A stretch of 61,600 nt of DNA from a virus. Positions 26,657-44,185 of the stretch are shown in pieces. The position numbers were made by a program, and so were the translations under genes. The notes under the pieces were generated by a model. The model was not told the DNA's origin. It was given only the letters and a program-made list of their open reading frames with translations, and searched no databases. How positions within the stretch are numbered: position 1 is the stretch's first letter; every line of letters begins with the position of its first letter. The stretch lies in the IMG/VR virus record IMGVR_UViG_3300029787_000035, positions 1 to 61,600 of that record; one strand, given 5' to 3'.

Positions 26657-28264
26657 ATGAATATATTATCATTACATCTGGGGCACGATGGTGCTGTCAC
26701 TATTATTTCTGATAATGAGGTTATTGTCCATCATCAACTAGATAGATTTAATAAATTTAAAAACGAATTTTTTCCTACATTTGAAGTTCTTCAAAAAATA
26801 AAAGATTTAAATATTAAAATTGATAAAGTTATTACTACCTCTATGGGAGGTATAAATTTTCCAATATGGTATTTTATAAAAAAATTTTTTAATTTAGAAC
26901 AAGAAAACTTGTTAGATATTGGACAAACACAACATCATATTTTTCATGCAGAATGTGTAAAATATTTTTATCAACAAAAAGAAAATTTTATAACATTTGT
27001 AGCAGATGGAGATGGTGCAGAACATTTTTTAAAACATGACTCACAATATTTAAATACATTAAAAGTTATTGAAAACGAAACTATTTTTAATGATAAACAC
27101 GAAAACTTATATAAAAAATATCATTGTGGTAAACCTATGAATGTATATTCTGATAAATTAAGAATACATGACAGTATATCTTATGGTAAAGGCTATCAAA
27201 AATTAACCTATGAATTAGGACTTGAAGAACATGAAGAAGGTAAAGCAATGGCTTTATCATCTTTTGGAACATTTAAAGATGAGATATTTAAAAACTTAAT
27301 TTTTAATGATTCTTGGAATCTTAATTTGGTTAACGATATACAAGATAGCTATGACTCTAAAAATACTTACAATAGATTTATGTTGAATCCTAATGTAAAT
27401 CATTTGTTAGAAAATTCACCAAGTTTAGATTTTGTTCATACTTTTCAAAAAGCATTTGAAGCATTATATCTTAATACACTTAAAAAAGTAGACTATAAAA
27501 ATAAAACAATATTATTAAGTGGTGGTTGTGCTCAAAATGTACTTAATAATACCAATTTAAAAAATACTTTAAAAAACAAAATTTTACCAGACCCTTTTAA
27601 TGGTGATTTTGGTATATCCTTGGGAGCAGCATTAGTAGCAGATAATAACAAAACTAAACCTCTTAAACATATATGTTCGGGGTTTGAGCCAGATAAAAAT
27701 ATCTCTTATTTTAATAATTTTAAAATAAAAAATACAACTGCTAAAGAAGTTGCAGCAATATTAGTTAATGAACCAGTCGCTATTGTATCTGGTAAAAGTG
27801 AACAAGGACAAAGAGGTTTAGGTTTTAGGTCTTTATTAGGCAATCCATTCAAGAAAGATATTTTAAATAAAATTAATAAAATAAAAAAAAGAGAGTGGTA
27901 TAGACCATTTGCTTGTACTGTTATTGAACAAGATGCTAGTAAATACTTTGAAATTGATAACAATGAAACATCTCCCTATATGATGTTTGTCTATAAAGCA
28001 AAAAATGACATTACAAAAAATGTTTGTTCTGTTGATGGTTATAGTAGAATTCAAACATTAAATAAAAATTTTCATCCTAAATACTTTAATTTAATTACAT
28101 GTTTTAAAAAACTCACAAAACATGGTGTTGTTTTAAATACTTCATTAAATTTACCAGGGCATGTTTTATGTGAAGAATATTCCGAAGTAGCACATATGAT
28201 GAAGAATTCAGATTTAAAATATTGCTATTTATCAGATTTAAATAAATTAGTATGCAAGAAATAG
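26657..28264 (+). CDS. Carbamoyltransferase, NodU/CmcH/TobZ family (copy 1)
   Basis: 535 residues, normal length for the family. The N-terminal Kae1-like domain starts MNILSLHLGHDGAVTII and has the HH motif (QTQHHIFHAEC) and the glycine motif ILLSGGCAQN. The C-terminal YrdC-like domain has SEQGQRGLGFRS, YRPFACTVIE, SRIQTL and VVLNTSLNLPG. The family transfers a carbamoyl group from carbamoyl phosphate through carbamoyl-adenylate to a hydroxyl of a sugar or base. It shares 13 bases with the downstream 2OG oxygenase gene, so the two are co-translated. Acceptor unknown. It is only distantly similar to the second carbamoyltransferase at 42683. Confidence 0.88.
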   Translation: MNILSLHLGHDGAVTIISDNEVIVHHQLDRFNKFKNEFFPTFEVLQKIKDLNIKIDKVITTSMGGINFPIWYFIKKFFNLEQENLLDIGQTQHHIFHAECVKYFYQQKENFITFVADGDGAEHFLKHDSQYLNTLKVIENETIFNDKHENLYKKYHCGKPMNVYSDKLRIHDSISYGKGYQKLTYELGLEEHEEGKAMALSSFGTFKDEIFKNLIFNDSWNLNLVNDIQDSYDSKNTYNRFMLNPNVNHLLENSPSLDFVHTFQKAFEALYLNTLKKVDYKNKTILLSGGCAQNVLNNTNLKNTLKNKILPDPFNGDFGISLGAALVADNNKTKPLKHICSGFEPDKNISYFNNFKIKNTTAKEVAAILVNEPVAIVSGKSEQGQRGLGFRSLLGNPFKKDILNKINKIKKREWYRPFACTVIEQDASKYFEIDNNETSPYMMFVYKAKNDITKNVCSVDGYSRIQTLNKNFHPKYFNLITCFKKLTKHGVVLNTSLNLPGHVLCEEYSEVAHMMKNSDLKYCYLSDLNKLVCKK

Positions 28265-28755
28265 TATCATCAATTTTACCTCAAAATATTAATCAAGAAA
28301 TTATTAAGTTATTAAAAATGACTGAAGGTTGGTATTTTGGATTTGATGATAAAACACAGAATAGTGAAATAGAAACAGATGAAGGATTAGCATTAAGAAC
28401 TTTTGGTAATAACTGTGTTACTAATAATAATACAAAAACATTAAATATGTTTGCATATATAATTGCATCAATTGTAAGCAACAAATTAAATATAAATTTT
28501 AAAGGATTAAAAAGAGTAAATTATAACTTTTATCATTCATTTTCTGAAGGAAAGCAACATATTGACAGTGAGCATCCAAAGTGTGTTAGTATACTTTATA
28601 ATTTAAATACAAATGATGGAACGACTGAAATTGGAAACGAAAAGTTTATTAGCAACGCTTCAGAGGCTGTTGTCTTTGATAGTAATAAACTTCACAAAGG
28701 AACTGGACCTACAAAAGGATTAAGGTATAACTTAAATATTATTATTTACACATGA
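28252..28755 (+). CDS. Fe(II)/2-oxoglutarate-dependent oxygenase (P4H-like)
   Basis: 167 residues. The double-stranded beta-helix ligands are visible: His103-x-Asp105 (QHIDSEHP), His148 (KLHKGTGPTK) and Arg158 for 2-oxoglutarate. The short length fits prolyl-4-hydroxylase-like viral enzymes. It starts inside the carbamoyltransferase gene and overlaps the endolysin start by 4 bases. A hydroxylase next to a carbamoyltransferase suggests it makes the hydroxyl that is then carbamoylated (inference). Confidence 0.75.
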   Translation: MQEIVSSILPQNINQEIIKLLKMTEGWYFGFDDKTQNSEIETDEGLALRTFGNNCVTNNNTKTLNMFAYIIASIVSNKLNINFKGLKRVNYNFYHSFSEGKQHIDSEHPKCVSILYNLNTNDGTTEIGNEKFISNASEAVVFDSNKLHKGTGPTKGLRYNLNIIIYT

Positions 28756-29228
28756 ATCTTTCTCGTAATTTTACCCTTCAAGAGTTAATTAAATCGGACA
28801 CTGCGATTAGGTTGGATATAAACAATAATCCAAACTCTGGTCAAATAGAAAAATTAAAAGCACTTTGTGAAAATATTTTACAACCAGTGCGGGACCATTT
28901 CGGCAGAGTAAAGGTAACATCAGGTTTTCGTAGCGAGCAACTCTGCCTAAAAATAGGTAGCTCAATCAACAGCCAACATGCAAAAGCTGAGGCGGCAGAT
29001 TTTGAATGTATGGGAACTGACAACGCTGAATTAGCTGATTGGATTTATATGAACCTAGAATTCGATCAATTGATTCTCGAGTTCTACACTCCTGGCGAAC
29101 CCAATTCGGGATGGATACACTGCAGCTTTACTACTGACCAACCTAGAAAACAATTTTTACATGCATTTAAATCAGAGGGTAAAACAAAATATAAACCAGT
29201 AATTGGAAAAGCAAAAGATTTGGTGTAA
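28752..29228 (+). CDS. Endolysin, peptidase M15 (D-Ala-D-Ala carboxypeptidase-like)
   Basis: 158 residues. Zinc ligands His76 and Asp83 lie in SQHAKAEAADFE and His123 in SGWIHCSF, the M15A pattern; VTSGFRSEQL is the conserved preceding segment. It cleaves peptide bonds in peptidoglycan to release progeny. No signal peptide, so it needs a holin (18067 or 52366 are candidates). The central 250 bases are G/C-richer than the flanking oxygenase genes. Confidence 0.88.
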   Translation: MNLSRNFTLQELIKSDTAIRLDINNNPNSGQIEKLKALCENILQPVRDHFGRVKVTSGFRSEQLCLKIGSSINSQHAKAEAADFECMGTDNAELADWIYMNLEFDQLILEFYTPGEPNSGWIHCSFTTDQPRKQFLHAFKSEGKTKYKPVIGKAKDLV

Positions 29229-29887
29229 TGATTTTTCCAACTTTGATAGTTGATAATTTTTTTAGTGACCCCTATAAAATTAAAACAATATCTGACAAAC
29301 TTAATTTTAAAAAAGATCCTAATGGAGAATGGCCTGGAGAAAGATCAGAACAATTACATAAAGTAAATTTTAATTTATTTAACTTTATTAATTTAAAAAT
29401 TTTATCTTTACTTTATCCTAAAGATCACCATCAAATAAATTTTACAGCCAGTAGCACCTTTCAAAAAATATCAAAAGAACGATATCCTCATGAAGGGTGG
29501 GTGCATAAAGATAACCCCTCTGAAATAACAGCTATTGTTTATTTAAGTAAACACAAAAATTGTGGAACATCTTTATGGAAAGCAAAAGATTTTTTTGTTC
29601 CAAATAATATGGATGATAAAAAATATTATTACAAAAAAGATACATTTGATGAAGAACAATTAAAATTTTTAAAAGAACACAACAATAATTATGAAAAAAT
29701 TTTAGAAGTTGATTCTTTGTTTAATAGAGTTTTAATATTTGATTCTAACCATCCACATTCTGCAAATAATTTTGTAGATCTTAATGTAGATGATGATAGA
29801 CTAACCTTAATAACTTTTATTAAAAAATTACAAATAAACAACGAACCTTTAAAATACCCTATTACAGAATGTAACAGGTTAGGATAA
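29228..29887 (+). CDS. DUF6445-like 2OG-Fe(II) oxygenase
   Basis: 219 residues. GWVHKDNP gives His93 and Asp95, and FDSNHPHSANNF gives the distal histidine (175 or 177), with Arg191 following. The layout TAIVYLS, CGTSLW, FNRVLIFDSNHPHSA matches the DUF6445 group of the oxygenase fold in phages. Substrate unknown. It starts one base inside the endolysin stop. Confidence 0.7.
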   Translation: MIFPTLIVDNFFSDPYKIKTISDKLNFKKDPNGEWPGERSEQLHKVNFNLFNFINLKILSLLYPKDHHQINFTASSTFQKISKERYPHEGWVHKDNPSEITAIVYLSKHKNCGTSLWKAKDFFVPNNMDDKKYYYKKDTFDEEQLKFLKEHNNNYEKILEVDSLFNRVLIFDSNHPHSANNFVDLNVDDDRLTLITFIKKLQINNEPLKYPITECNRLG

Positions 29888-29905
29888 AGTAAAAGGAGAA
29901 ACACA

Positions 29906-30046
29906 ATGGCAATAACTAGAGGACAAATATCAAAGCAAGTAGAGGGTAAGTTGAGTGGTGCTAGGGACGAAAAAGAGAAGAAGAAAAAAGTAAAATTAGC
30001 AATTAAGCGTAAAAAAAACCCATTGGCTAAGACATTTACTGTCTAG
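29906..30046 (+). CDS. Small basic protein
   Basis: 46 residues, MAITRGQISKQVEGKLSGAR followed by a Lys-rich stretch ending NPLAKTFTV. AAAGGAG precedes the ATG. Nucleic-acid binding is possible. Short basic peptides of this type are frequent in marine phage structural regions. Confidence 0.6.
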   Translation: MAITRGQISKQVEGKLSGARDEKEKKKKVKLAIKRKKNPLAKTFTV

Positions 30047-30068
30047 TCAAAAAATGTTATAATCTTGC

Positions 30069-30494
30069 ATGACTAAATTATGTGCAAGAGGCAAAGCTGC
30101 AGCCAAAAGAAAATTTAAGGTTTATCCTTCTGCATATGCAAACGCATATGCTTCTAAAATTTGTGCAGGAAAAGCAAAAGATCCATCAGGTTTAAAAAGA
30201 AAAGATTGGGGGCCAAAGAAAGCTTCTGAAGGAGCAGAAATAAAAATTGAAAAACTTAAAGTTGAAGCACAAAAAATAATTGATAATTTTCCAAAAGAAA
30301 AAAAATATAAATATAAAAAACCAAAAAAGAAACCTTACAATCTAACTGAGCCAACTGGTTTAGGTAGAGCCATGACACTTGACACTACTACAAATATTAA
30401 AGGAGCTGCAGTCCCATTACAAAAGATGTGTGGAGGCGAGGTGCGTGGAACAGGTGCTGCTATCAAAGGTAAAAGTTTTAAAGGCGTATTCTAA
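30069..30494 (+). CDS. Basic DUF5872-like protein with GAAIKGKSFKGVF tail
   Basis: 141 residues. The N-terminal block KLCARGKAAAKRKFKVYPSA followed by YANAYASKICAGK is a motif shared by many phage and giant-virus basic proteins. The end, GTGAAIKGKSFKGVF, nearly equals the end of the protein at 17111-18067. Probably DNA-associated or virion-internal. One base of overlap with the next gene. Confidence 0.72.
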   Translation: MTKLCARGKAAAKRKFKVYPSAYANAYASKICAGKAKDPSGLKRKDWGPKKASEGAEIKIEKLKVEAQKIIDNFPKEKKYKYKKPKKKPYNLTEPTGLGRAMTLDTTTNIKGAAVPLQKMCGGEVRGTGAAIKGKSFKGVF

Positions 30495-30763
30495 TGAGCC
30501 TAAAAAAATGGTTTAATGAAAAATGGGTTGATATAGGATCACCAAAAAAGGGGGGAGGATATAAAGAATGTGGAAGAAAATCTGCAAGTGGATCAAAAAG
30601 AAAGTACCCCAAATGCGTGCCTGCTGCAAAAGCAAACCGAATGACAGACTCGCAAAAGCGTTCTGCTGTTGCAAGAAAGAGAGCAGCCGGTAATCCTGGA
30701 GGCAAACCAACAAACGTCAGCACCTTTACCAAGAAGTATTACGGTGGTATGATAGACGTATAA
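30494..30763 (+). CDS. DUF5872-like basic protein
   Basis: 89 residues. LKKWFNEKWVDIGSPKKGGGY, CGRKSASGSKRKYPKCVPAAKA and RSAVARKRAAGNPGGKPTNV are the hallmarks of DUF5872, found in viruses and some bacteria. Very basic; probably binds DNA. Follows a related basic gene. Confidence 0.82.
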   Translation: MSLKKWFNEKWVDIGSPKKGGGYKECGRKSASGSKRKYPKCVPAAKANRMTDSQKRSAVARKRAAGNPGGKPTNVSTFTKKYYGGMIDV

Positions 30764-30780
30764 TATTTAAGGAGAAAATT

Positions 30781-30981
30781 ATGGCATTAAAAGGTGATCA
30801 AGCAAAATTAGATAAAAACAAAGATGGTAAAATATCTGGTGAAGATTTTAAATTAATGAAAAAAAACATGGGTGGTGAGTCTAAGCAAGGTTTTGGCGCA
30901 GCTAGAACTTCTGGCATGGGCTTACAAGATGAGAATTTAATACCAGGAAAGTCTTTGGATTATTACAAAGACATAATGTAA
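30781..30981 (+). CDS. Small EF-hand calcium-binding protein
   Basis: 66 residues. A canonical EF-hand loop is present at residues about 11-22 (DKNKDGKISGED), with Asp, Asn, Asp, Lys, Ser and Asp/Glu in the ligand positions. A Gly-rich part follows. In sea water calcium is abundant, so a virion-associated calcium site is plausible. AAGGAG precedes the ATG. Confidence 0.7.
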   Translation: MALKGDQAKLDKNKDGKISGEDFKLMKKNMGGESKQGFGAARTSGMGLQDENLIPGKSLDYYKDIM

Positions 30982-30987
30982 TGAATT

Positions 30988-31683
30988 ATGGCAACGTCAG
31001 GAACTACAGCATTCGATCTTCAGATCGATGACATTATTGAAGAAGCATACGAACGATGTGGTATGCGAACTAATAGTGGTAATGACTTACGAAGCGCAAG
31101 AAGAAGTTTAAATCTTTTATTTTCAGAATGGGGTAACAGAGGTATTCACCTTTGGAAAGTTAAACTTAATGAACAAGCCTTAACTGCAGGAACTGCAACT
31201 TATACTGTTGCAACAGATGTTAATGATGTATTAGAAGCATACATCTCAACAACAAACGCAGCAGGTAATACTGCATCTACAAATGATATTTCTTTAACAA
31301 AAATTGATAGATCAGCTTATGCTGCACTACCAAATAAATTACAAACTGGACAACCATCACAGTATTATGTTGATAGACAAACGACACCAACTATAAGTTT
31401 ATATCTCGCACCCGATGCATCGACTTACACAACTTTAAAATTTTATACAATTAATAGAATTGAAGATGCAGGTGGTTTTACTAAAACAGCTGATGTAGCT
31501 TACAGATTTTTACCTTGTATGTGTTCTGGTCTTGCTTATTATTTGTCACAAAAAAGAGCTCCAGATAGAATACAATTATTAAAACAACTTTACGAGGATG
31601 AATTAATTAGAGCATTAAATGAAGATGGATCAAGAACTTCAGTTTATATATCACCTCAAACTTATTTTGGAGATGGTGTATAA
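30988..31683 (+). CDS. Head-tail adaptor, P22 gp4-like
   Basis: 231 residues. The N-terminal helices (IIEEAYERCGMRTNSGNDLRSARRSLNLLFSEW) and the following beta part, with a C-terminal helical FLPCMCSGLAYYLSQKRAP, match tail accessory factors of the P22 gp4 type, which extend the portal. First of a run of tail genes, each overlapping the next by one base. Confidence 0.75.
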   Translation: MATSGTTAFDLQIDDIIEEAYERCGMRTNSGNDLRSARRSLNLLFSEWGNRGIHLWKVKLNEQALTAGTATYTVATDVNDVLEAYISTTNAAGNTASTNDISLTKIDRSAYAALPNKLQTGQPSQYYVDRQTTPTISLYLAPDASTYTTLKFYTINRIEDAGGFTKTADVAYRFLPCMCSGLAYYLSQKRAPDRIQLLKQLYEDELIRALNEDGSRTSVYISPQTYFGDGV

Positions 31684-32734: not shown

Positions 32735-32750
32735 TTTAAGGAGAACAATT

Positions 32751-33200: not shown

Positions 33201-34592
33201 ATGGCGAATACTTGGGGTGCGCTTAGTTGGGGACAGGGAAATTTTGGTGATCAAAATAATCACTCTGAAATTCCTACCGGACTACTTGCTACCCTAAGTG
33301 TTGGCTCAGGAACCTACGAAGGAATAATCAACGAAGGTTGGGGAAGAAAAGGATGGGATACACTATCCTGGGGTATTGCTGGTACTCTAATATCTGACGG
33401 ATTACAATTAACATCATCATCTGGACAAGTCGAAATCGATACTGAAATAAATATTGGTTGGGGTCGTCTAGGTTGGAGTGTTAATCCATGGGGTATTGGT
33501 GGAACTGTAATGCCTTCACAGTTGTCTATGACAACTGCAATAGGTTCTGTTACTACAACTGCTGAAGTAAACCTAGGTTGGGGTAGACTTGATGGTTGGG
33601 GTACAAGAGGTTGGGGTAATGCTGAACAAGCAGTAACTGCTGCTACTTTAGCAATTTCAAATATAACATTTAATGGAGCAGGCGTAACCATAGATGCAGA
33701 AGTCAATGCAGGTTGGGGCAGAGAGTCATGGGGTAAATCTGGATGGGGTATTCAAGGTACTCTACAAGCAACTTCACTACAAGCTAACATTAGTGCAGGT
33801 CAAGTAACTGCAGTTGGAAAAGTACAAAAAGGTTGGGGTAGAGAAGAAGGTTGGGGTACAAGAGCATGGGGTGCTTTTGAACAGATTGCTGCTATTACTG
33901 GTCAACAATTAACTTCTGGTATCGGTACAGTAGATATTGACGCAAAAATTCAAATTGGTTGGGGTAGACAAGAATGGGGTAACCAAGCTTGGGGTGTAGC
34001 ATTCTCTGCGGCTGCAACAGGTTTACAATTAACTTCTTCATTAGGTGAAGAAGCTGCAGGTACTAATTTTACTGCAGAGGTATCTGGTTTTGGATTACAA
34101 ACTTCTATTTCAGCTGTAGGAACTTCTGCAAATAACGATACAGAAATTGCACATAGTTTCTTAGCGAATATATCTATGGGTGATAGCACACAAATAGGTA
34201 TTGCTAATGTTCCTGTAACAGGAACACAAGCGACTATATCAGTTGGTCAAGCAGTTGGTGGATTAATAACTCCTGTAGATGTTTCTGGAATTCAATTATC
34301 TGCATCACTTGGAAGTATAACTTTAATCCAATCAACAAATGAATCTATTACAGGATTTGGCATGACTGCATCCATGGGAGAAGAAGGACCTATCCCACAA
34401 GTTATGGTTGGTACAACAGGTCAACAATTAGCGTCTTCAGTTGGTTCTGTAGGACCAATAACTGGTACTGCAAATGTTGAATTAACTGGCATAGTATTGA
34501 CATCTTCAGCTGGACAACTTAATATAAATGCGTGGGCAGAAATCGATCCTGATGTAAATAATATTTGGACAGAGGTTGATATAGCCGCATAG
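33201..34592 (+). CDS. Tail fibre-like protein with repeated GWGRxxWG modules
   Basis: 463 residues. Six modules of about 45-48 residues each contain GWGR followed by W-G pairs (GWGRKGWDTLSWGIAGT, GWGRLGWSVNPWGIGGT, GWGRLDGWGTRGWGNAEQ, and so on), alternating between two variants, in residues 45-270. The C-terminal half is beta-rich without tryptophans but continues the S-x-G-x-(V/I) periodicity. Repetitive Trp-rich fibres of this form occur in marine phages; host-surface binding is inferred. Repeat-driven recombination could change module number. Confidence 0.72.
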   Translation: MANTWGALSWGQGNFGDQNNHSEIPTGLLATLSVGSGTYEGIINEGWGRKGWDTLSWGIAGTLISDGLQLTSSSGQVEIDTEINIGWGRLGWSVNPWGIGGTVMPSQLSMTTAIGSVTTTAEVNLGWGRLDGWGTRGWGNAEQAVTAATLAISNITFNGAGVTIDAEVNAGWGRESWGKSGWGIQGTLQATSLQANISAGQVTAVGKVQKGWGREEGWGTRAWGAFEQIAAITGQQLTSGIGTVDIDAKIQIGWGRQEWGNQAWGVAFSAAATGLQLTSSLGEEAAGTNFTAEVSGFGLQTSISAVGTSANNDTEIAHSFLANISMGDSTQIGIANVPVTGTQATISVGQAVGGLITPVDVSGIQLSASLGSITLIQSTNESITGFGMTASMGEEGPIPQVMVGTTGQQLASSVGSVGPITGTANVELTGIVLTSSAGQLNINAWAEIDPDVNNIWTEVDIAA

Positions 34593-34628: not shown

Positions 34629-36020
34629 ATGGCATCATCATATTCAACAGACCTCAAACTGGAGTTAATGGTAACCGGTGAAAACGCTGGTACATGGGGT
34701 GATAAAACAAACACAAATTTAAATTTAGTACAACAAGCAATTGCAGGTTTCGAGCAAGTTACACTTTCAAGTGGTGGTACTTTAGCTCTTGCAATGTCTG
34801 ATGGTGCACTATCAAACGCAAGAAATTTAGTTATTAAATTTGCTACAGCATCAATCGCTGCTAGCACAATTTGTACTATTCCAAATGGAATAGAAAAATT
34901 TTATATTTTTGATTGCACAGGATTAACTAACCCAACAAATTTAACAATTAAAACTGCTTCAGGAACAGGATTTACTCCAGACGCTGCAAAAATTTATGCT
35001 GCATATGCTGATGGAACAAACCTTAAAGAAGTATCTTTAGACACTTTAGGTGGCACGGTAGCTGCAGCTCAAATAGCTGATAGTGCTGTGACGACTGCCA
35101 AAATTGCTGCCGATGCTGTGACTGCTGCTAAAATTGCAGACAATGCAGTTGTAACTGCAGCGATAAATGCAGACGCAGTAACAAGTGCAAAAATTGCAGA
35201 TGATGCTGTTGGTGTAGATCAATTAGCAAACACTGCAGTAACTGCTGCAACATATACAGTAGCAACAATAACAGTTGATGCTCAAGGAAGAATTACTAAT
35301 GCATCTTCTGGATCAGCTGGTGAAGCAGATGAATTATTTTTTATTGAAGGAAGCGGTCAAACTGGTGTTATTCAAAACCCAGAAACTAAAATGAAAGCTG
35401 GATCAGAAGTAATGGTTTATGCTCAAGGTGGAGCCGGTGGCGGTGGTGGAAACCTAGGTGAAAACGGTGGACCATTTGGTGGAGCGCAAGGTGCTCCAGG
35501 TGGAATGGTTTTTTTCGTAACAACTTTATCAACTGCTTTAGCTTCATCTCCATACACACTTGGAGCTGCAGGCGCAGGAGGACCATCTGGTCCTAACCCA
35601 GGCGTGGCAGGTGGAGACACTATCGTAACAAACTTTGTTACTGCACCAGGAGGAACTGGTGGTGATGCTGGAAACAGAGGACCTTCATCTGGAGGAAACC
35701 CTTCTAACAGAGGTATAGGAATACCTCCAGTTAACAATAGTGCTACAGTAAGTTACAGTCCAAAAGCACCTACAAATGCTTATGGTCCAAATAGTGATGG
35801 AACTTTAAACAACACATTTACAAACCCTAAAGCAATGAGTGGACACATTATGAGAAATGTTTTCTCAGCACCTGGTACATTTGCTACATTTGGAAATAAC
35901 ACAGGTGGTGCAGGAGCAAATACTAACCAGAACTCTGGAGGAGTTCCAGGTAGTGTTCCTCCATCAGCAGGTTTTGCTGCTACTGGTAATGCATTCATTG
36001 GTATAATGGTTAAGAATTAA
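34629..36020 (+). CDS. Tail fibre / adhesin with glycine-rich tip
   Basis: 463 residues in three parts. Residues 1-60 (STDLKLELMVTGENAGTWGD and following) are a conserved fibre attachment module. Residues about 140-205 hold short alanine-rich repeats (SAVTTAKIAADAVTAAKIAD), typical of trimeric fibre shafts. The last 200 residues are Gly/Pro/Asn-rich (AGGAGGGGGNLGE, GAAGAGGPSGPNPG), like polyglycine-sandwich adhesin tips. It is the likely receptor-binding protein. The tip's GP/PG content makes it a possible substrate for the nearby hydroxylases (inference). Confidence 0.82.
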   Translation: MASSYSTDLKLELMVTGENAGTWGDKTNTNLNLVQQAIAGFEQVTLSSGGTLALAMSDGALSNARNLVIKFATASIAASTICTIPNGIEKFYIFDCTGLTNPTNLTIKTASGTGFTPDAAKIYAAYADGTNLKEVSLDTLGGTVAAAQIADSAVTTAKIAADAVTAAKIADNAVVTAAINADAVTSAKIADDAVGVDQLANTAVTAATYTVATITVDAQGRITNASSGSAGEADELFFIEGSGQTGVIQNPETKMKAGSEVMVYAQGGAGGGGGNLGENGGPFGGAQGAPGGMVFFVTTLSTALASSPYTLGAAGAGGPSGPNPGVAGGDTIVTNFVTAPGGTGGDAGNRGPSSGGNPSNRGIGIPPVNNSATVSYSPKAPTNAYGPNSDGTLNNTFTNPKAMSGHIMRNVFSAPGTFATFGNNTGGAGANTNQNSGGVPGSVPPSAGFAATGNAFIGIMVKN

Positions 36021-36522: not shown

Positions 36523-37260
36523 ATGAATAAAATCATAGAATTCTATACTCAACCAGAAATAGCTTCAGATAAATCAATTTTACCTATTCCAGTTAAATTG
36601 AATATTCCAGAGTGGTTTAAAAAACTAGATGGAAAAAAAGAATTAGTTAAAAATTGTATGCCTTTTTTGGATACAATTACTACTGGTTACGCTTTAAAAA
36701 CAACATCTGATATATATGTAAACCACAACTTCCTTGATGATAATAATCAACCATCAACTGAAATGAAATGCCCATATGAAGCAAACCCTCATTTTTATGA
36801 CAGCTTAAGAATGAATGTAAATAAACTTAAGAATGCCGAACATCCTAGATGGCAGCTAGAGGGTTCTCCTATATTAAATAAAAATTCTAATTTAAAAATA
36901 AATAAAATAGTTTATCCATTTACAGTTAGAACACCTAAAAATTACAGTTGTTTATTTGTACCTCCTCTTAATAACAAAGATGATAGATTTGAAATTATAC
37001 CTGGTATTGTAGATACAGATACATTTCCAATGGAAACAAATTTTCCATTTATTGTAAATGGTGATAAATATAATAAATTAGAATTTACTATAAAAAAGGG
37101 AACTGTATTTGCACAGATTATTCCTTTTAAAAGAGAAAGTTGGAAAATGGTAGTAAAAGAAAATAGATCTTTTGCTTCAGATAATTACATATATAGGTAC
37201 TTTACAACATTTAAACATAAGTATAAAAACATGGCATGGAACAAAAAAACTTTTCGTTAA
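36523..37260 (+). CDS. DUF6065-like conserved phage protein
   Basis: 245 residues. IPEWFKKLDG, NCMPFLDTITTGYALKTTSDIY, RTPKNYSCLFVPPLN, GIVDTDTF and KKGTVFAQIIPFKRESWKM are landmarks of a protein found beside 2OG oxygenases in phages (DUF6065). The fold seems to be a beta barrel, perhaps cupin-like, but no metal triad is clear. It overlaps the next oxygenase gene by 25 bases, so they are likely to work together. Confidence 0.68.
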   Translation: MNKIIEFYTQPEIASDKSILPIPVKLNIPEWFKKLDGKKELVKNCMPFLDTITTGYALKTTSDIYVNHNFLDDNNQPSTEMKCPYEANPHFYDSLRMNVNKLKNAEHPRWQLEGSPILNKNSNLKINKIVYPFTVRTPKNYSCLFVPPLNNKDDRFEIIPGIVDTDTFPMETNFPFIVNGDKYNKLEFTIKKGTVFAQIIPFKRESWKMVVKENRSFASDNYIYRYFTTFKHKYKNMAWNKKTFR

Positions 37261-37835
37261 CTGATCACATACACACGATACATGAGTTTCTGGATTATAA
37301 AACAGTAAGTCAATTACTTAAATATATTAACAGGCTTGATAAACAAAATAAATTTGGTGATGCACAAATAATAGGAGAAACCAAAGATCCTAGTCAATCA
37401 ACAGTAGATACAAAAATAAGAGATACAAGAAATTACGCTCTTACAAATTTAAACGATTCTAAAACAGATCAACACTGGTGTAATTTATTAATAAGTTCTT
37501 TTAGAAAAGCTTCTGATGTTTATCGTAAACAATATCATCATATAGATATTGCAGATATTATAGATATTCAAATATTAAAATATTCAGTGGGTGGTCACTA
37601 TATACAACATGTAGATGATCATTATAATATACCAAGAACGTTAAGTTTTATATATAGACTTAATAATGATTTTAAAGGTGGAGATTTAGTTTTTAATGAT
37701 AGAGATAAAGAAATGCTAAGATTAAAACCAGAACCTAATTCTTTAATTATGTGGCCTAGTAATTTTTTATATCCTCATGGAGTAGAGCCTGTAAGTGAAG
37801 GAACAAGATGGAGTATTGTAGCATGGGCAAGATAG
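37236..37835 (+). CDS. 2OG-Fe(II) oxygenase, prolyl 4-hydroxylase type
   Basis: 199 residues. HVDDHYNIPRTLSFIYRLN gives His125 and Asp127; YPHGVEPVSEGTRWSIVAWA gives His181 and Arg191. FKGGDLVFND between them is the conserved strand of P4H-like enzymes. Such enzymes hydroxylate prolines or other residues in proteins. It lies three genes after the glycine-rich fibre, a possible substrate (inference). Overlaps neighbours on both sides. Confidence 0.82.
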   Translation: MEQKNFSLTDHIHTIHEFLDYKTVSQLLKYINRLDKQNKFGDAQIIGETKDPSQSTVDTKIRDTRNYALTNLNDSKTDQHWCNLLISSFRKASDVYRKQYHHIDIADIIDIQILKYSVGGHYIQHVDDHYNIPRTLSFIYRLNNDFKGGDLVFNDRDKEMLRLKPEPNSLIMWPSNFLYPHGVEPVSEGTRWSIVAWAR

Positions 37836-38383
37836 CAAATGGTTATAAAGTAATAAAAAATATTCTTACAAAAGAAGAACAATTATTATTAAAAGGTTAC
37901 ACTGATATTCAACATAGATTTAATACTAAAAATTTTGATACTATGGGGCAAAGCGATAACATGGATACTTGTTTTTATGAAGACCCGTTAATGGAAGCTT
38001 TATTACTATCAAAGCAAAGTATAATGGAGAAAGAAACAAATTTAAAATTATTTCCAACATACAGTTTTTGGAGAATGTATACTTATGGTGCTACTCTAGC
38101 TAAACATACAGATAGAAGTTCTTGTGAAATATCAGTTACAATTAATATGGCTGGAGATGGAACACCATGGCCAATCTATATTGGTAAATCAGAAATTAAC
38201 CTAGAGCCTGGTGATGGTGTTATTTATGAAGGTATTGATAATGAACATTGGAGAGATGAGTATTTAGGTGATGGACAAGCACAAGTATTTTTACATTATG
38301 TAGATCAAAATGGTGATCATAAAGACTGGAAATACGATAAAAGACATGGGATAGGTTACCCTATAACTTACAAACATAATTAA
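37808..38383 (+). CDS. 2OG-Fe(II) oxygenase
   Basis: 191 residues from ATG 37808; an internal ATG at 37823 would give a shorter overlap with the previous gene. FWRMYTYGATLAKHTDRSSCEIS gives His100 and Asp102; NEHWRDEYLGDGQAQVFLHYVDQNG gives His147 and the conserved end of the domain. This subgroup is common in marine phages and bacteria. Substrate unknown. Confidence 0.78.
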   Translation: MEYCSMGKIANGYKVIKNILTKEEQLLLKGYTDIQHRFNTKNFDTMGQSDNMDTCFYEDPLMEALLLSKQSIMEKETNLKLFPTYSFWRMYTYGATLAKHTDRSSCEISVTINMAGDGTPWPIYIGKSEINLEPGDGVIYEGIDNEHWRDEYLGDGQAQVFLHYVDQNGDHKDWKYDKRHGIGYPITYKHN

Positions 38384-38406
38384 TTTTGATATAATGGTCT
38401 AAAATT

Positions 38407-40551
38407 ATGCCATTAACAAATATACAAATTAGACCTGGATTTAATAAACAAGTCACTGCTACTGGTGCTGAAGGGCAATGGGCAGATGGAGACTTTGTAA
38501 GATTTAGGTATGGTTTACCTGAAAAGATAGGTGGATGGGCTCAAATTACAAGTAAGACTCTTGTTGGAGCAGTTAGAGAACAACTTGTTTGGGCTGATCT
38601 AGACGGAAGAAAGTATGCTGCACTTGGCACTAACAAAGCATTAATTATATACTATGAAGGTGCTTTCTATGACATCACTCCTTTTGATAGGACAATAACA
38701 GGTGCTACTTTTAACACGACAGATACTTCTGCGACAGTGACAGTAAATAAAACTGCTCACGGTCTTATAGCTGGTGACTTACTTACTTTTAGTGCAGTTA
38801 CAGTACCAGTTGGATCTGGATATTCAACATCTGATTTTACAACAAACACTTATGAAGTTGTTACAGTTCCAACATCGGATACCTTTACTGTAACCATGGC
38901 CACTGCAGCAACTGGCACAACATCTGGAGCTGGTGCTGCTACCATCAATCCTTATGTAAATGTAGGTCCCTTAACGCAGACTGCAGGTTACGGTTGGGGC
39001 ACATCTTCTTGGGGAGGAGCAACCGGTACCTTATCAACTTTAGACGGTGCTCTAGCTGACGATACTGCTGGTAACAATGGATCGTCAACAGATATCACAC
39101 TCACTAGCACGACAAATTTTCCAACTGCCGGTACAATAAAGGTAGGTACAGAATTTATCTCATACACAGCAATAAGTGGAAATATATTGCAACAAATAAC
39201 AAGAGGTGTAGCCGGAACAAGAAGCAGTCATTCTAATGGATCGACAGTTGAGTTCTATACAGCTTGGGGAGAAACATCTACTACAAGTTCGGTAATCCTA
39301 GAGCCAGCCTCTTGGTCTCTTGATCATTTTGGCGAAAAGCTAATTGCTACTGTAAAAAATGGTAAAACATATGAATGGAATCCTATACAAGCATCTGGTA
39401 ACGCTTTAGAAACTAGAGCCTCTGTAGTTACTGGTGCACCCACTAGATCAGTCATGTCAATTGTTTCTGAAAGAGATAGACACTTAATTATTATGGGAAC
39501 AGAAACAAGTATAGGTAATACTACATCACAAGATAAAATGTTTATTAGATTTTCAGACCAAGAAAATTTAAGTGATTATTTACCTACTTCAACAAATACT
39601 GCAGGAACATTTAGGTTAGACTCAGGTGTAAAAATTGTTGGAGCTGCTAAAGCAAAAGATTATATTTTAATTTTAACAGATACATCTGCTTATGTAATGC
39701 AGTTTGTTGGACCACCTTTTACATTTTCAATTAGACAAGTAGGTAGTAATTGTGGATTGATTGGACAACACGCTATCAAATATGTAAATGGTGCAGTTTG
39801 GTGGATGGGTCAAGCAGGAGGATTTTTTGTTTATGATGGTACAGTAAAAAGTGTACCTTGTTTAGTAGAAGATTTTGTATTTACATCAAAAGGAGATAAT
39901 TTAGGTATAAATTATACTTCTGGTGAACAAGTATATGCTGGCTTAAATCATTTGTATGAAGAGATAAGTTGGTTCTACCCTAAAGCTAATTCTACTGCTG
40001 TTGATAGAGTTGTTACTTATAATTATACAGAAAATACTTGGACGACTGGTTCATTATCAAGAACTACTTGGTTTGATGCTACACTTTACGATAACCCTTA
40101 TGCTTCTGAATTTATAGGCACTGGTACACCTTCTTTCCCAACAATACTTGGAGTAAGTGCAGCTAATGGTGCATCTACATACTATGCACATGAAGTTGGA
40201 AATGATCAAGTAGATTTTGCAGGCACCCCAACTGCAATCCCTGCATTTATAGAATCTGGTGATTTTGATTTAGGAGAAGGGCAAGATTTCATGAGCATGA
40301 GAAGATTTGTTCCTGATTTTAAATTACTTACTGGTAATGCACAGGTAACAATAAACCTTAGAAATTATTCGACTGACGCATCAAAGTCCTCGCCTCTCGG
40401 ACCTTTTACGATAACTTCAACGACTGACAAAGTTAATACTAGAGCAAGAGGTAGAGCTGCTAGTTTAAAAATTGCTAATTTATCTACAGGCCAAAATTGG
40501 AGATTTGGAACATTTAGAGCCGATGTACAACCCGATGGTATGCGAGGATAA
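38407..40551 (+). CDS. P22 gp10-like tail hub / packaged DNA stabilisation protein
   Basis: 714 residues. It begins MPLTNIQIRPGFNKQVTATGAEGQW and continues WADGDFVRFRYGLPEKIGGW, the conserved start of P22 gp10-like tail proteins in marine phages; VNGAVWWMGQAGGFFVYDG and the C-terminal MSMRRFVPDF segment agree. Residues about 90-300 appear to be inserted beta domains. It plugs the tail tube or links hub to needle. Confidence 0.75.
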   Translation: MPLTNIQIRPGFNKQVTATGAEGQWADGDFVRFRYGLPEKIGGWAQITSKTLVGAVREQLVWADLDGRKYAALGTNKALIIYYEGAFYDITPFDRTITGATFNTTDTSATVTVNKTAHGLIAGDLLTFSAVTVPVGSGYSTSDFTTNTYEVVTVPTSDTFTVTMATAATGTTSGAGAATINPYVNVGPLTQTAGYGWGTSSWGGATGTLSTLDGALADDTAGNNGSSTDITLTSTTNFPTAGTIKVGTEFISYTAISGNILQQITRGVAGTRSSHSNGSTVEFYTAWGETSTTSSVILEPASWSLDHFGEKLIATVKNGKTYEWNPIQASGNALETRASVVTGAPTRSVMSIVSERDRHLIIMGTETSIGNTTSQDKMFIRFSDQENLSDYLPTSTNTAGTFRLDSGVKIVGAAKAKDYILILTDTSAYVMQFVGPPFTFSIRQVGSNCGLIGQHAIKYVNGAVWWMGQAGGFFVYDGTVKSVPCLVEDFVFTSKGDNLGINYTSGEQVYAGLNHLYEEISWFYPKANSTAVDRVVTYNYTENTWTTGSLSRTTWFDATLYDNPYASEFIGTGTPSFPTILGVSAANGASTYYAHEVGNDQVDFAGTPTAIPAFIESGDFDLGEGQDFMSMRRFVPDFKLLTGNAQVTINLRNYSTDASKSSPLGPFTITSTTDKVNTRARGRAASLKIANLSTGQNWRFGTFRADVQPDGMRG

Positions 40552-40563
40552 TACATTTTTTAT

Positions 40564-41109
40564 ATGATAAGAAATGATCTATTTGAAACTCCAATATGGA
40601 GCACACAAGTTGAATTAGATATAAATACACTTATAAAAATATTTGATGAAGCAGTAAAAAATAATTACACTGCATTAAATAGTTCTACAGATGGTTCTAT
40701 ACAAACACAAAATTTGTGTAAAACAGATGCTTTTAAAGATATTAAAATAAATATTGAAGAAATATTTAAAGATGAAACAAACCAAGAAGTATCTATTACA
40801 AGTGCTTGGATTTGTAAAAACCCACCAGGTTCAAGAAACAAAAACCATATACATGGTGCATGTGATTTATCTGGAGTATATTATATTCAAACACCTAAAA
40901 ATTCTGGAGATATAGTGTTTTCTAATCCTAATCCAATAGTTCAACACAAAGAACTTTATAACAAAGATAAATGTTTTTGGCATCAATATAAGCTTGAACC
41001 TGTAGAAAAAGGTATTTTATTTTTTCCTTGTTGGGTGCCTCATGAAGTAGAAACTAATAAATCAGAAAAAAACCGACTAGCATTATCTTTCAATATGGTT
41101 TATATTTAG
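40564..41109 (+). CDS. 2OG-Fe(II) oxygenase (TIGR02466-like)
   Basis: 181 residues. DLFETPIWSTQ at the start, SAWICKNPPGSRNKNHIHGACDLSGVYYI (His95/His97, Asp101), GILFFPCWVPHEV (His160) and RLALSFN (Arg171) match the TIGR02466 / 2OG-FeII_Oxy_5 group. This group is frequent in marine phages and its substrates are unknown. Confidence 0.78.
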   Translation: MIRNDLFETPIWSTQVELDINTLIKIFDEAVKNNYTALNSSTDGSIQTQNLCKTDAFKDIKINIEEIFKDETNQEVSITSAWICKNPPGSRNKNHIHGACDLSGVYYIQTPKNSGDIVFSNPNPIVQHKELYNKDKCFWHQYKLEPVEKGILFFPCWVPHEVETNKSEKNRLALSFNMVYI

Positions 41110-41111
41110 CT

Positions 41112-41276
41112 ATGGCAAAAATTAATATTATTATACCAGAACCTACTGATCAATATTCTGAGGATAACCAAAGACAAATTGCTCAAGCATTAAGAACATT
41201 AGCAGATCAATTAAATACAACATTTCAAGTTGATCAAGCAGAGGAGGACCAAGCATTTACTTGGTTTAATAACTAA
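41112..41276 (+). CDS. Small conserved phage protein
   Basis: 54 residues. SEDNQRQIAQALRTLADQLNTTFQ followed by EEDQAFTWFNN is a pattern I recognise from tiny phage proteins after tail genes. Helical. Its stop overlaps the next start (TAATG). Confidence 0.7.
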   Translation: MAKINIIIPEPTDQYSEDNQRQIAQALRTLADQLNTTFQVDQAEEDQAFTWFNN

Positions 41277-41620
41277 TGTCCTTACAATATAAAAATCAAT
41301 CATTTAATCTTACAACATCAAATCTTACAACAGTATTGACTATCGATTCTCAATCAAGAGCATTAATAAAAGGTATGAATATAACAAATCAACTGGGTAG
41401 TACTGTGTTAGTTAAATGTCAAGTTAAGGATAATAGTGCTTCAAGCAATACAGAATTTTTTCATAAGACTGTTGCAAACGCTTCTACAGAAACTGATGTA
41501 GCAGGAAAAGTTTTAGTTTTAGAAGAAAGTGATAGTATAAAAGTACAATCTGCTACAGCTGATGCTATTCAAGGTGTCATTTCTTATGCTTTGATAAATA
41601 GATCTGATCAAAATGGCTAA
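41276..41620 (+). CDS. Putative virion protein
   Basis: 114 residues, predicted beta sandwich: TTVLTIDSQSRALIKGMNITNQ then VLVLEESDSIKVQSATADAIQGVISY. This resembles small phage proteins that bind or decorate virions. Overlaps genes on both sides. Confidence 0.6.
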   Translation: MSLQYKNQSFNLTTSNLTTVLTIDSQSRALIKGMNITNQLGSTVLVKCQVKDNSASSNTEFFHKTVANASTETDVAGKVLVLEESDSIKVQSATADAIQGVISYALINRSDQNG

Positions 41621-41753
41621 ACAAAAATTTACGCATTTTATCCCTAGGGATAAGCCAAAGAAAAGAGGACCAGGAGCACACAAGAAAAATAAAAATAAAG
41701 ATGAAAAAAGAAGATGTAAAAAACAACGTTATAAAGGACAAGGAAGAGTATGA
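41613..41753 (+). CDS. Small basic protein
   Basis: 46 residues, MAKQKFTHFIPRDKPKKRGPGAH then a Lys/Arg-rich stretch ending KGQGRV. The start FxHFxPRDKPKKR and end YKGQGR recur in small phage proteins of marine origin. RNA or DNA binding is likely. Overlaps the genes on both sides. Confidence 0.65.
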   Translation: MAKQKFTHFIPRDKPKKRGPGAHKKNKNKDEKRRCKKQRYKGQGRV

Positions 41754-41974
41754 TATTTAAAAGATTAGAAGGCACTGCAAACTTTAGAATAGAGTTTGAT
41801 GATGATGAAATTAAGTTAATAAATAAACAAAAACATTTCGAGTTAACCCCTGAAGGAGTTGCTAAATTTGCAGGAAAATTAATGGGTGCTGCAGTTGAAA
41901 TACGCTCAGAAGTGTATAAAATAAATAAAGATATAGGAAATGAAATTTTTAAAGAAACAGAGGTAATAAAATAA
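41750..41974 (+). CDS. Hypothetical protein
   Basis: 74 residues, FKRLEGTANFRIEFDDDEIKLINKQKHFELTPEGVAKFAGKLM: a small beta hairpin followed by a helix. No family. One base of overlap with the next gene. Confidence 0.6.
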   Translation: MIFKRLEGTANFRIEFDDDEIKLINKQKHFELTPEGVAKFAGKLMGAAVEIRSEVYKINKDIGNEIFKETEVIK

Positions 41975-42174
41975 TGTCTGACGATTTAATTACAATACCA
42001 GCGGTAGCGAAAGAAATTGTTAAGCACAAAAGAACAGGTAAGGTGTATGATAGCAAAGCTCATTTTGATTCTGATGTTGCTGATCCCAACACTGATACTA
42101 CTGTGGATGATTTTCAACAAGACCTAGAAATAAAGGTTGCAAAATTGGAGCTAGTTAGTAAAACCAAAGAATAA
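41974..42174 (+). CDS. Small phage protein of the GKVYDS type
   Basis: 66 residues. IVKHKRTGKVYDSKAHFDSDVADPNTDTT and DFQQDLEIKV are patterns seen in small phage proteins of similar size. Function unknown. It shares its last base with the next start. Confidence 0.65.
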   Translation: MSDDLITIPAVAKEIVKHKRTGKVYDSKAHFDSDVADPNTDTTVDDFQQDLEIKVAKLELVSKTKE

Positions 42175-42686
42175 TGTATCAACAATTATTTGGTAGTCCT
42201 ATTTGGGTAACTAAAATACAACCACCAAAAATTTTTCTAGATAGCAAGAATTTTAAACCAAATTGGGGAAGTCAAACTTTGTCTTCTTTCAGTCAAAATC
42301 CAGAGGATAATATATTAAAAGAAAATGGTGAAACATATCTTTTAAATAAAATTAATAATTGTCTTATTGATTTAAATGTAAAAAAAATAAGATTAATTAA
42401 TATTTGGCGAAACATTTATCAAAATACTTTTCAAGATAGACACATGCATGTAAAGTCACATTTTAGTTTTACTATATATGAAAAGTTACCAAAACCTCAA
42501 ACTGTATTTTTTCACCCTGCTCATGATATGATTTATGCATTAGGATTAGAAAATTATATAGATCCTACAATTGCACCAAATGTTGTTGAAGGAGATATGG
42601 TTTTATTTCCAAGTTATTTAGAACATATGGTAAAGCCTAACGATCAAGCCATGACTATTAGTGGTAACATAGAAATAGTAGAATGA
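42174..42686 (+). CDS. 2OG-Fe(II) oxygenase-like protein coupled to a carbamoyltransferase
   Basis: 170 residues. It begins LFGSPIWVTKI like TIGR02466 oxygenases. DRHMHVKSHFSFTIYE provides His90 and His92, and EGDMVLFPSYLEHMVKP provides His151. The usual C-terminal arginine that binds 2-oxoglutarate is not evident (TISGNIEIVE), so it may bind another co-substrate or be degenerate. Its stop overlaps the carbamoyltransferase start as ATGA, so the two are coupled. Confidence 0.65.
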   Translation: MYQQLFGSPIWVTKIQPPKIFLDSKNFKPNWGSQTLSSFSQNPEDNILKENGETYLLNKINNCLIDLNVKKIRLINIWRNIYQNTFQDRHMHVKSHFSFTIYEKLPKPQTVFFHPAHDMIYALGLENYIDPTIAPNVVEGDMVLFPSYLEHMVKPNDQAMTISGNIEIVE

Positions 42687-44185
42687 AATTTTTGGGTCTT
42701 AGATTATGTGAGCATGACTCAAATATTTCTTACTCTGATGGCACAAGTGTAAAGTATTTTAAACACGAACGGTACAATCAAATTAAACATTATGGATGTA
42801 ATAATCTTTTTGAATGGTGTGAAATAGAAAATTATTTAAATATAAAACTATCTGACCTAGACGCAATAGCTATAGTGATTGATGTTTTTAGATATCCTCA
42901 CCTTAAAAAAGAAGATCCAGAAGCTCTTTTTGAAAAATTTAAAATACCACAAAAACCATTTACTGATTTAGACTGTCCAGTATTTAGAGTTGATCATCAT
43001 TATGCTCATAGTTTATCTAATTGGCCACTTGTTGATAAAGCAGATGTTGACTTTGTATTAGATGGGTTTGGTGACTTAAGAAGATCTTGTAGTATTTTTT
43101 CTAATAATAAATTTGTAGATGTATTTACTTTAGAAACAATGTTTTCTTTGGGTAAACAATTGTCACTTATGGGTGAACACATGAACATCTTTGCAGTTGG
43201 TGATGATGCTGCAGGCAAACTAATGGCCTTAAAAGCTTTTGGTAATTTTAATCAAAAGTATTATGATTACATGTCACAATTCGAATTAAATGATACTAAA
43301 AAAATATTTGATTATAATGAATTTGTAAAATGTGTAGGAAGTGAACTAGCAGCTAATTATAAATTTATAGATTATTTAAGAACTCTGCATGACTACATGG
43401 AAGTTGCGTTTCCTAAATTTTTTATGAAGTATGCAAAATCAAATGATGTTATTACTTATTCTGGTGGGGTAGCACACAATGTGTGTATAAATACACAAAT
43501 AAGAAAACAGTTTCCTAATTTAATTATACCACCTCATTGTAATGATGAAGGCTTGTCTTTAGGTTGTATTGAATTTTTAAGGCAACATTACAATCAACCA
43601 AAATTTAAAAACACTGGCTATCCTTATTGGCAATCTGATATGAGACCAGAAAAAGACGCTTCTTCAGAAACAATTAAAAAAACTGCAGAAGATTTAGCTA
43701 ATGGTAAAATTATTGGTTGGTATCAAGGACATGGTGAAATAGGACCAAGAGCTTTAGGTAATAGATCAATACTTATGAGTCCAGAAGTTAAAAATGGAAA
43801 ACATATACTTAATAGTAAAGTAAAACATAGAGAAGATTATAGACCTTTTGCAGCATCAATTTTAATAGAAGATACAAAAAATTATTTTGATTGGGAAGGA
43901 GAAAGTGATTATATGAAATACAGTGTTAAATTTAAAGACAAAGTATTTGAACCTATTTCACATATAGATAATACTAGCAGAATACAAACAGTAAAACCTA
44001 ATCTAAATATTTATTATGAACTTATATCTGAGTTTAAAAAACTGACTGGTCTTCCAATGTTATTAAATACTTCTTTGAATGATAATGGTAAACCAATAGC
44101 AGGTAAACCTGCAGACGCATTAGCTTTACTTAAAAATTCTGAATTAGATAGTTTAGTTATTGGTGATACAACTATAAACAAATGA
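42683..44185 (+). CDS. Carbamoyltransferase, NodU/CmcH family (copy 2)
   Basis: 500 residues. MKFLGLRLCEHDSNISY, VDHHYAHSLSN (HxxxH region), ITYSGGVAHN and the C-terminal YrdC-like GEIGPRALGNRSILMSP, REDYRPFAASI, SRIQTV and MLLNTSLNDNG show all canonical motifs, closer to the family consensus than copy 1. It should O-carbamoylate a hydroxylated acceptor. It lies between an oxygenase gene and a run of glycosyltransferase genes, overlapping both by 4 bases; all read as one operon. Confidence 0.92.
   Translation: MKFLGLRLCEHDSNISYSDGTSVKYFKHERYNQIKHYGCNNLFEWCEIENYLNIKLSDLDAIAIVIDVFRYPHLKKEDPEALFEKFKIPQKPFTDLDCPVFRVDHHYAHSLSNWPLVDKADVDFVLDGFGDLRRSCSIFSNNKFVDVFTLETMFSLGKQLSLMGEHMNIFAVGDDAAGKLMALKAFGNFNQKYYDYMSQFELNDTKKIFDYNEFVKCVGSELAANYKFIDYLRTLHDYMEVAFPKFFMKYAKSNDVITYSGGVAHNVCINTQIRKQFPNLIIPPHCNDEGLSLGCIEFLRQHYNQPKFKNTGYPYWQSDMRPEKDASSETIKKTAEDLANGKIIGWYQGHGEIGPRALGNRSILMSPEVKNGKHILNSKVKHREDYRPFAASILIEDTKNYFDWEGESDYMKYSVKFKDKVFEPISHIDNTSRIQTVKPNLNIYYELISEFKKLTGLPMLLNTSLNDNGKPIAGKPADALALLKNSELDSLVIGDTTINK

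Follow-up and report, generated by a model that had tools for sequence, protein, structure and literature searches.

The stretch of DNA analysed here, which we call the window, covers positions 1 to 61,600 of the virus record IMGVR_UViG_3300029787_000035 in IMG/VR. It contains two pairs of overlapping genes, in each of which a carbamoyltransferase (CT) adjoins a small oxygenase (OX) related to the 2-oxoglutarate (2OG)-Fe(II) enzymes. The four genes, with lengths in amino acids (aa), are:

26657..28264, plus strand: CT1, NodU/TobZ-type O-carbamoyltransferase, 535 aa, with the HHxxxH and downstream Asp motifs retained
28252..28755, plus strand: OX1, PKHD/P4H-like 2OG-Fe(II) oxygenase, 167 aa, recognised by an HxD...H...R pattern and its predicted fold
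42174..42686, plus strand: OX2, 2OG-FeII_Oxy_5-like oxygenase, 170 aa (PF13759, 1.7e-9, 38.4 bits against a cut-off of 27)
42683..44185, plus strand: CT2, NodU/TobZ-type O-carbamoyltransferase, 500 aa

The gene order differs between the pairs. In pair 1 the carbamoyltransferase comes first and its end shares 13 bases with the start of OX1 (26657-28264 / 28252-28755), whereas in pair 2 the end of OX2 shares 4 bases with the start of CT2 (42174-42686 / 42683-44185). Both carbamoyltransferases are intact and carry the Carbam_trans_N and Carbam_trans_C domains, all exceeding the curated cut-offs (PF16861 1.5e-41 and PF02543 4.4e-15 in CT1, PF16861 3.8e-55 and PF02543 1.1e-10 in CT2). The HHxxxH, Asp-Gly and Arg-x-Leu-Gly-x-Arg-Ser motifs that mark the NodU/CmcH/TobZ family are present in both proteins, and we take the roles of these residues to be those of their TobZ counterparts. 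Judged from these sequence features, CT1 and CT2 are members of the NodU/CmcH/TobZ O-carbamoyltransferase family and are predicted to carbamoylate hydroxyl groups. Their nearest solved relatives are 7xb6, TobZ, NovN and GdmN, the last three of which carbamoylate antibiotics. The first-pass annotation of the window had reported both pairs with their overlaps and had considered the carbamoyltransferases too divergent for a recent duplication. The coordinates proved exact, and CT1 and CT2, which are 32 % identical across 343 aa, fall into two clades with a deep split between them, so they do not stem from a recent duplication. Concerning the origin of CT2, 109 pattern matches led to a single cellular locus, in a metagenome-assembled genome of Myxococcales (40 % identity), which is a weak result given the narrow patterns.

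OX1 had no match in the Pfam search. However, H103, D105, H148 and R158, corresponding to the facial triad and the 2OG-binding Arg, are invariant in all 12 aligned sequences of its family. The predicted model (pLDDT 90.6) is a double-stranded beta-helix with a prolyl-hydroxylase-like fold. Foldseek ranked PHD2 and bacterial P4H first (E about 1e-7), and the structural Z-scores were 16.6 for SnoN (root mean square deviation, rmsd, 2.3 over 154 aligned residues) and 16.4 for 3dkq (rmsd 2.4, 148 aligned), with PiuC also among the matches. The OX2 model (pLDDT 92.5) resembles 2rg4 (Z 16.4, rmsd 2.5, 163 aligned) and 3bvc (Z 16.1, rmsd 2.8, 166 aligned), far ahead of the next match, a viral collagen prolyl hydroxylase (Z 12.9). 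OX2 retains H90, H92 and H151 (HxH...H), and the three His are present in 160 of 160 aligned relatives.

The window was called to 96 genes, seven of which encode oxygenases; five of these (starting at 29228, 37236, 37808, 40564 and 59315) were overlooked in the first-pass annotation. Iterative profile searches started from all seven overlap with each other, marking them as one superfamily. With this number of oxygenases, the probability that both carbamoyltransferases adjoin one by chance is about 0.011 and that at least one does is about 0.21. The adjacency within this genome is therefore modest, suggestive evidence, and evidence beyond chance has to come from relatives.

Relatives were collected from IMG/VR as the best 80 of 325 CT2-type and the best 80 of at least 104 CT1-type matches, using alignment-based scans, as single-sequence scans recovered only 5 and 4 loci. 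Twelve loci were dropped, namely three annotated phage records and contigs that duplicated the window or one another, and so were CTs shorter than 400 aa. The survey set of 166 CTs in 161 loci was reduced to 88 representatives at 85 % identity, the CT1 and CT2 of the window included, with genes called by a simple purpose-written open reading frame (ORF) caller. In 21 of the 36 loci of the CT2-type group an oxygenase directly precedes the CT, whereas each of positions -2 to -6 holds an oxygenase in 6-9 of 29-36. We compared the counts of adjacent oxygenases with shuffles that permute the genes inside each local neighbourhood. In the CT2 clade of the tree, 18 of 21 CTs have an adjacent oxygenase (shuffle mean 9.5, 0 of 20,000 shuffles as high), in the CT1 clade 13 of 15 (mean 8.4, P 0.0015) and among the other 52 CTs 12 (6.8 expected, P 0.004), figures to be read with the non-independence of related loci and the clustering of the adjacency label on the tree in mind. 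After removal of the window rows the counts are 17 of 20 for the CT2 clade and 12 of 14 for the CT1 clade (P 5e-5 and 0.005). Of 48 OX-CT pairs on the same strand, 40 overlap, and in 26 the overlap is exactly 4 bases; the corresponding numbers for other neighbours of CTs are 32 and 9 of 90. All seven seed-defined subtypes are represented among the partner oxygenases, and neighbourhoods of CT and OX are found repeatedly, at differing sites of the genome. The coupling of oxygenase and carbamoyltransferase is thus conserved beyond chance in relatives, and the lack of co-occurrence that the first-pass annotation had named as evidence against its proposal is not what we see.

Similar neighbourhoods occur in two cultured phages, HTVC008M (Pelagibacter HTCC1062) and S-SSM5 (Synechococcus WH8102). 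In the pelagiphage HTVC008M (L013, 1306-3891), a CT2-type gene precedes two genes for 2OG oxygenases that overlap or abut. The island of S-SSM5 (L015/L264) contains a CT, a 2OG oxygenase, a 'ferrochelatase', two PF05721-domain proteins and a leprecan-like protein, with a fibre gene a few genes away.

The window appears to be a complete genome, as its last 98 bases repeat bases 3-100. The portal protein is 88.9 % identical to that of Pelagibacter phage HTVC023P over 95 % of the protein, and for the majority of the replication, terminase and capsid genes the identity to this isolate is 73-95 %, so the phage is a relative of the HTVC023P-type pelagiphages, and the host of this ocean phage is probably a SAR11 bacterium. 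HTVC023P itself lacks both carbamoyltransferases, with no PF16861 gene found in its genome, and CT1 and OX1 are absent together. Its homologue of 41974-42174 continues straight into the glycosyltransferase gene, which means that OX2, CT2 and the gene at 44182 are missing as a set. The opposite situation is seen in G001, an environmental phage of 63,122 bp with a terminal repeat of 159 bases (98 % identity), which has both pairs. The backbone of G001 is distant from the window (polymerase about 62 % and primase 25 % identical), but two blocks of the window, at about 25.9-29.2 and 32-46 kb, align with it nearly full-length, mostly at 79-87 % DNA identity. Within these blocks, all 12 genes with matches in both genomes are nearer to G001 and 14 genes match G001 only. 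Outside them, 28 of 34 genes are nearer to HTVC023P, while 19 match HTVC023P only, 5 G001 only and 12 neither. The ratios of nonsynonymous to synonymous substitution rates (dN/dS) against G001 are 0.043 for CT2, 0.095 for CT1, 0.176 for OX2 and 0.208 for OX1, all below the ratios of two tail-region proteins (0.28 and 0.40); the low values indicate that all four genes are under purifying selection. The pairs are gained, lost and exchanged within the same blocks as fibre genes.

The other genes of the window that matter here are:

2617..3819, plus strand: C5 cytosine methyltransferase, accessory gene (PF00145 1.3e-53 at 2629-3444)
29228..29887, plus strand: third oxygenase near pair 1, DUF6445 / phrog_1644, weak 2OG-FeII_Oxy_3 match
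34629..36020, plus strand: tail-fibre-like protein with a glycine-rich C-terminal part, within the exchanged block (PHROG tail fibre matches)
36523..37260, plus strand: phrog_7084 / DUF6065-like protein, overlapping the next oxygenase gene (37236)
37236..37835, plus strand: 2OG-FeII_Oxy_3 oxygenase (PF13640 1.7e-18)
37808..38383, plus strand: oxygenase-like protein labelled 'ferrochelatase' in PHROGs (phrog_2954), with invariant H100-x-D102-R103 and H147-x-R149
40564..41109, plus strand: 2OG-FeII_Oxy_5 oxygenase with the usual Arg present
44182..44745, plus strand: Gly_transf_sug-like putative glycosyltransferase (below cut-off), missing from HTVC023P along with OX2 and CT2
44735..45664, plus strand: group-1 glycosyltransferase, retained in HTVC023P
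45651..46562, plus strand: Anp1-like putative glycosyltransferase (below cut-off)
59315..59935, plus strand: 2OG-FeII_Oxy_5 oxygenase in the replication region

The family of the 37808-38383 protein, phrog_2954, is marked by invariant HxDR and HxR motifs and merges with the oxygenases in iterative searches; solved relatives were not found up to E 1. The name 'ferrochelatase', under which this family appears in print as partner to 2OG oxygenases, is probably a misnomer. In the methyltransferase region, an ORF at 2789-4333 on the plus strand overprints the methyltransferase in another frame and matches phrog_1008 (2e-30), and about 1 kb within 2617-4333 appears, from these profile matches, to encode two conserved proteins (the PF00145 and phrog_1008 frames). 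The translation of the tail-region protein at 33201-34592 contains about six tryptophan-rich repeats of the GWGR...W(G) type.

Downstream of CT2 lie the Gly_transf_sug-like gene, the group-1 glycosyltransferase (two genes on) and the Anp1-like gene, and a glycosyltransferase of the types found in the window is present within six genes in 9 of 21 CT2-clade loci. In one related locus (L098), a CT1 relative with 65 % identity is followed by an oxygenase and then by a DegT sugar aminotransferase. In an oxygenase-poor sister branch of CTs, the gene upstream encodes a conserved protein of about 310 aa, which matches heptosyltransferases (GT9) weakly in 8 of 18 cases. Of 54 neighbours collected in this branch, 44 were scanned, and they include 8 sugar epimerases, 8 phosphatases of the HAD type and 7 kinases of the PfkB type, a set reminiscent of heptose synthesis.

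In the mechanism we propose, each pair would form an overlapping two-enzyme tailoring module, probably coupled in translation. The Fe(II) oxygenase would place a hydroxyl (or another oxidation) on the substrate and the O-carbamoyltransferase, dependent on ATP and carbamoyl phosphate, would then cap the hydroxyl as a carbamate. ATP and carbamoyl phosphate are cytoplasmic, so the substrate should be accessible from the cytoplasm; candidates are a virion protein just after its synthesis and a glycan precursor, either a sugar or a lipid-linked one. The likeliest class of target would be the recognition surface, on the side of the phage a glycan or residue of its own tail-fibre apparatus, or on that of the host the surface polymer to which the fibre attaches. 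The enzymes, their conserved coupling, the purifying selection, the mosaic exchange with fibre-region blocks and the lack of a recognisable set of DNA-modification genes are observed, whereas the order of the reactions, the substrate and its side, virion or host, are inferred. A fibre or cell-surface sugar had been the alternative in the first-pass annotation, and it is the one we favour, as the pairs lie in exchanged blocks of the tail-fibre region and CT2 is close to glycosyltransferases. Tailoring of a recognition surface is, in our opinion, the best reading of the locus, and we lean towards the view that the pairs are swappable modules that hydroxylate and then O-carbamoylate a surface glycan or protein.

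Several observations weigh against this reading. One concerns OX2, since the usual C-terminal 2OG-binding Arg is absent in 27 of 27 members of its family (26 of the 31 relatives found, plus OX2), which have A, S or another residue there. The Arg is present in 2rg4, 3bvc and the other PF13759 proteins of the window. Hydroxylation by pair 2 is therefore less certain than by pair 1 and, judged from the missing residue, pair 2 may not be a hydroxylating pair. Lys104, suggested as a substitute by the 27 sequences, was not supported as a clean swap in the 160 relatives, of which 67 have the Lys without the Arg, 45 the Arg without the Lys, 21 both and 27 neither. Further, a window-type glycosyltransferase lies within six genes in only 1 of 15 CT1-clade loci, some CT1 relatives are located in the replication region away from fibres (L032, L113), and the limits of the exchanged blocks were set post hoc from the identity profile. 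The coupling is also not obligate. Three loci (L020, L032 and L045) have a CT2-type gene without an adjacent oxygenase, and a search with OX2 only (80 loci, 79 with a match) showed the match to be followed directly by a CT in 17 cases, by an oxygenase in 24 and by another gene in 36, with 2 lying at the end of their contig. The closest OX2 relatives are mostly coupled to a CT and the distant ones often lie within oxygenase arrays, and oxygenase-rich accessory hotspots could explain a part of the adjacency.

A broader reading extends surface tailoring to whole islands. Marine phages might use exchangeable tailoring islands beside fibre genes, composed of small Fe oxygenases, O-carbamoyltransferases, Trp-halogenase-type flavoproteins and glycosyltransferases, to diversify their own receptor-binding apparatus by post-translational or glycan chemistry, with the OX-CT pair as the core unit and the Arg-less OX2 maybe representing a new three-His, possibly 2OG-independent class of oxygenases. 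We regard this as possible but doubtful. If true, host recognition would evolve through swapped chemistry as well as protein sequence. Trp-halogenase-type genes of related islands (four of four scanned positive, 13 found) were all within three genes of an oxygenase or CT. Such flavoproteins adjoin oxygenases and CTs in L099, L100, L103, L104, L214, L220, L225, L230, L231, L232, L234 and L173. The tryptophan-rich tail protein was considered as a halogenase substrate and dropped, as there was no clear co-occurrence.

The alternative that fares best is that common tailoring genes pile up independently in the same variable hotspots, with no need for the two enzymes to act in sequence. The seven oxygenases of the window genome, the lack of a fixed partner subfamily and the presence of OX2 relatives without CTs and of CTs without oxygenases all agree with such a scenario. 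So do the loci L228 and L229, which have arrays of seven consecutive 2OG-oxygenase-like genes, in L229 directly behind a large fibre-like protein. However, the adjacency exceeds that in shuffles of the same neighbourhoods, so oxygenase density alone is an insufficient explanation, and the enrichment of tight overlaps in OX-CT pairs and the joint absence of the pairs from HTVC023P also speak against it. We consider it unlikely.

Another possibility is that the island makes or modifies a soluble compound resembling a natural product during infection. Related islands do join oxygenases, a carbamoyltransferase and Trp-halogenase-type flavoproteins (13 halogenase-like genes), and antibiotic-pathway enzymes are among the solved CT relatives. 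Yet no scaffold-building enzyme was recognised among the scanned proteins and the genes are located among virion genes, which makes small-molecule tailoring improbable.

The hypothesis put forward in the first-pass annotation was hypermodification of DNA, in which the C5 methyltransferase makes 5-methylcytosine, an oxygenase converts it to 5-hydroxymethylcytosine (5hmC) and a CT produces 5-carbamoyloxymethylcytosine. The methyltransferase is indeed present in the window, and a 5hmC carbamoyltransferase of the same superfamily has been characterised, as described in parts of PMC8670742. Nevertheless, PF00145 is absent from all 29 other records, that is 26 related records, most of them fragments but with complete or almost complete genomes for G001, HTVC008M, S-SSM4 and S-SSM5, and three HTVC023P-type genomes. 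G001 carries both pairs without it, and the methyltransferase segment of the window aligns with neither HTVC023P nor G001. The methyltransferase is thus probably not part of the OX-CT system. The sections of PMC8670742 on DNA-modifying CTs describe their co-occurrence with thymidylate synthase, and a search of the window for ThyA and ThyX (PF00303, PF02511) found none, while positive controls were detected. The seven oxygenases of the window had no match to the Tet_JBP domain at E 0.1. At the signature positions W408/G421/R423 (TobZ-based numbering of PMC8670742) the 5hmC enzyme has I/C/T, where CT2 has W/G/R and CT1 has I/G/R, the correspondence being inferred from our alignment columns, and the G and R are retained by 96 of 97 aligned CTs. 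In S-RIM44 (L252), a CT is annotated in two pieces, the first of which overlaps thyX and retains G and R at these positions. On the grounds of PF00145 in the 29 records, PF00303, PF02511, the signature residues and the tree, we rejected DNA modification as the most likely function and regard it as very improbable. The first-pass interpretation is therefore supported as regards the coupling but not as regards the route to a carbamoylated base.

The weakest alternative, metabolic use, in which the CT feeds pyrimidine synthesis or the oxygenases take part in DNA repair or other metabolic processes, as parts of the reports on cyanophages S-SZBM1 and ms29 have it (PMC9146016, PMC10436341), is hardly credible: CT1 and CT2 belong to the O-carbamoyltransferase and not the aspartate carbamoyltransferase family (their profile search matched only Carbam_trans, HypF_C_2 and YrdC-type domains, with no PyrB-type domain), the S-SZBM1 gene is itself 40.6 % identical to CT2, which speaks against its assignment to pyrimidine synthesis, and the pairs are located in fibre-linked blocks.

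Taken together, the locus presents a real and conserved coupling of genes from known enzyme families in a new context, for which a DNA route is unlikely. Accessory genes for 2OG oxygenases and 'carbamoyltransferases' recur in cyanophages and pelagiphages without an explanation, and the coupling, the exchange with fibre blocks and the assigned enzyme family suggest a surface chemistry linked to recognition of the host. A description of OX-CT coupling was not found in a literature search of open-licence PMC text.

The chemistry we propose has a parallel in cephamycin C biosynthesis, where a hydroxyl introduced by a 2OG hydroxylase (CefF) is then carbamoylated by a CmcH-type enzyme; that is a bacterial antibiotic pathway whose likeness to the phage enzymes is one of chemistry. 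For a surface sugar, O-carbamoylation has been proposed for WapO, the heptose carbamoyltransferase of the Pseudomonas lipopolysaccharide core, which is a bacterial chromosomal gene with no oxygenase partner in the description given in parts of PMC8005017. The 5hmC carbamoyltransferase (eLife 2021, PMC8670742) shares superfamily and chemistry with CT1 and CT2 but has other signature residues. Among the CTs examined it is closest, by local alignment, to that of L132 (24.8 % over 456 aa), and a partner gene for thymidylate synthase / dCMP hydroxymethylase is lacking in the window. The same source describes, for CTs on unmodified contigs, unrelated flanking genes such as group-1 glycosyltransferases, and one of these is also found in the context of CT2. 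Among HTVC023P-type pelagiphages, several non-orthologous 2OG-Fe(II) oxygenases clustered near 'ferrochelatases' have been described (Wittmers 2022, PMC9599517), which agrees with the window, a member of the same phage group; the term 'carbamoyl' is not in the main text of that paper, and the coupling to CTs and the exchange with fibre blocks come from the present analysis. With the NodU/CmcH/TobZ family as a whole, CT1 and CT2 share both domains, the conserved His and Asp residues and the Arg-Leu-Gly motif, although CT1 has QRGLGFRS instead of the usual GPRALGNRS, and the phage branches differ from the rest of the family in being coupled to small Fe oxygenases.

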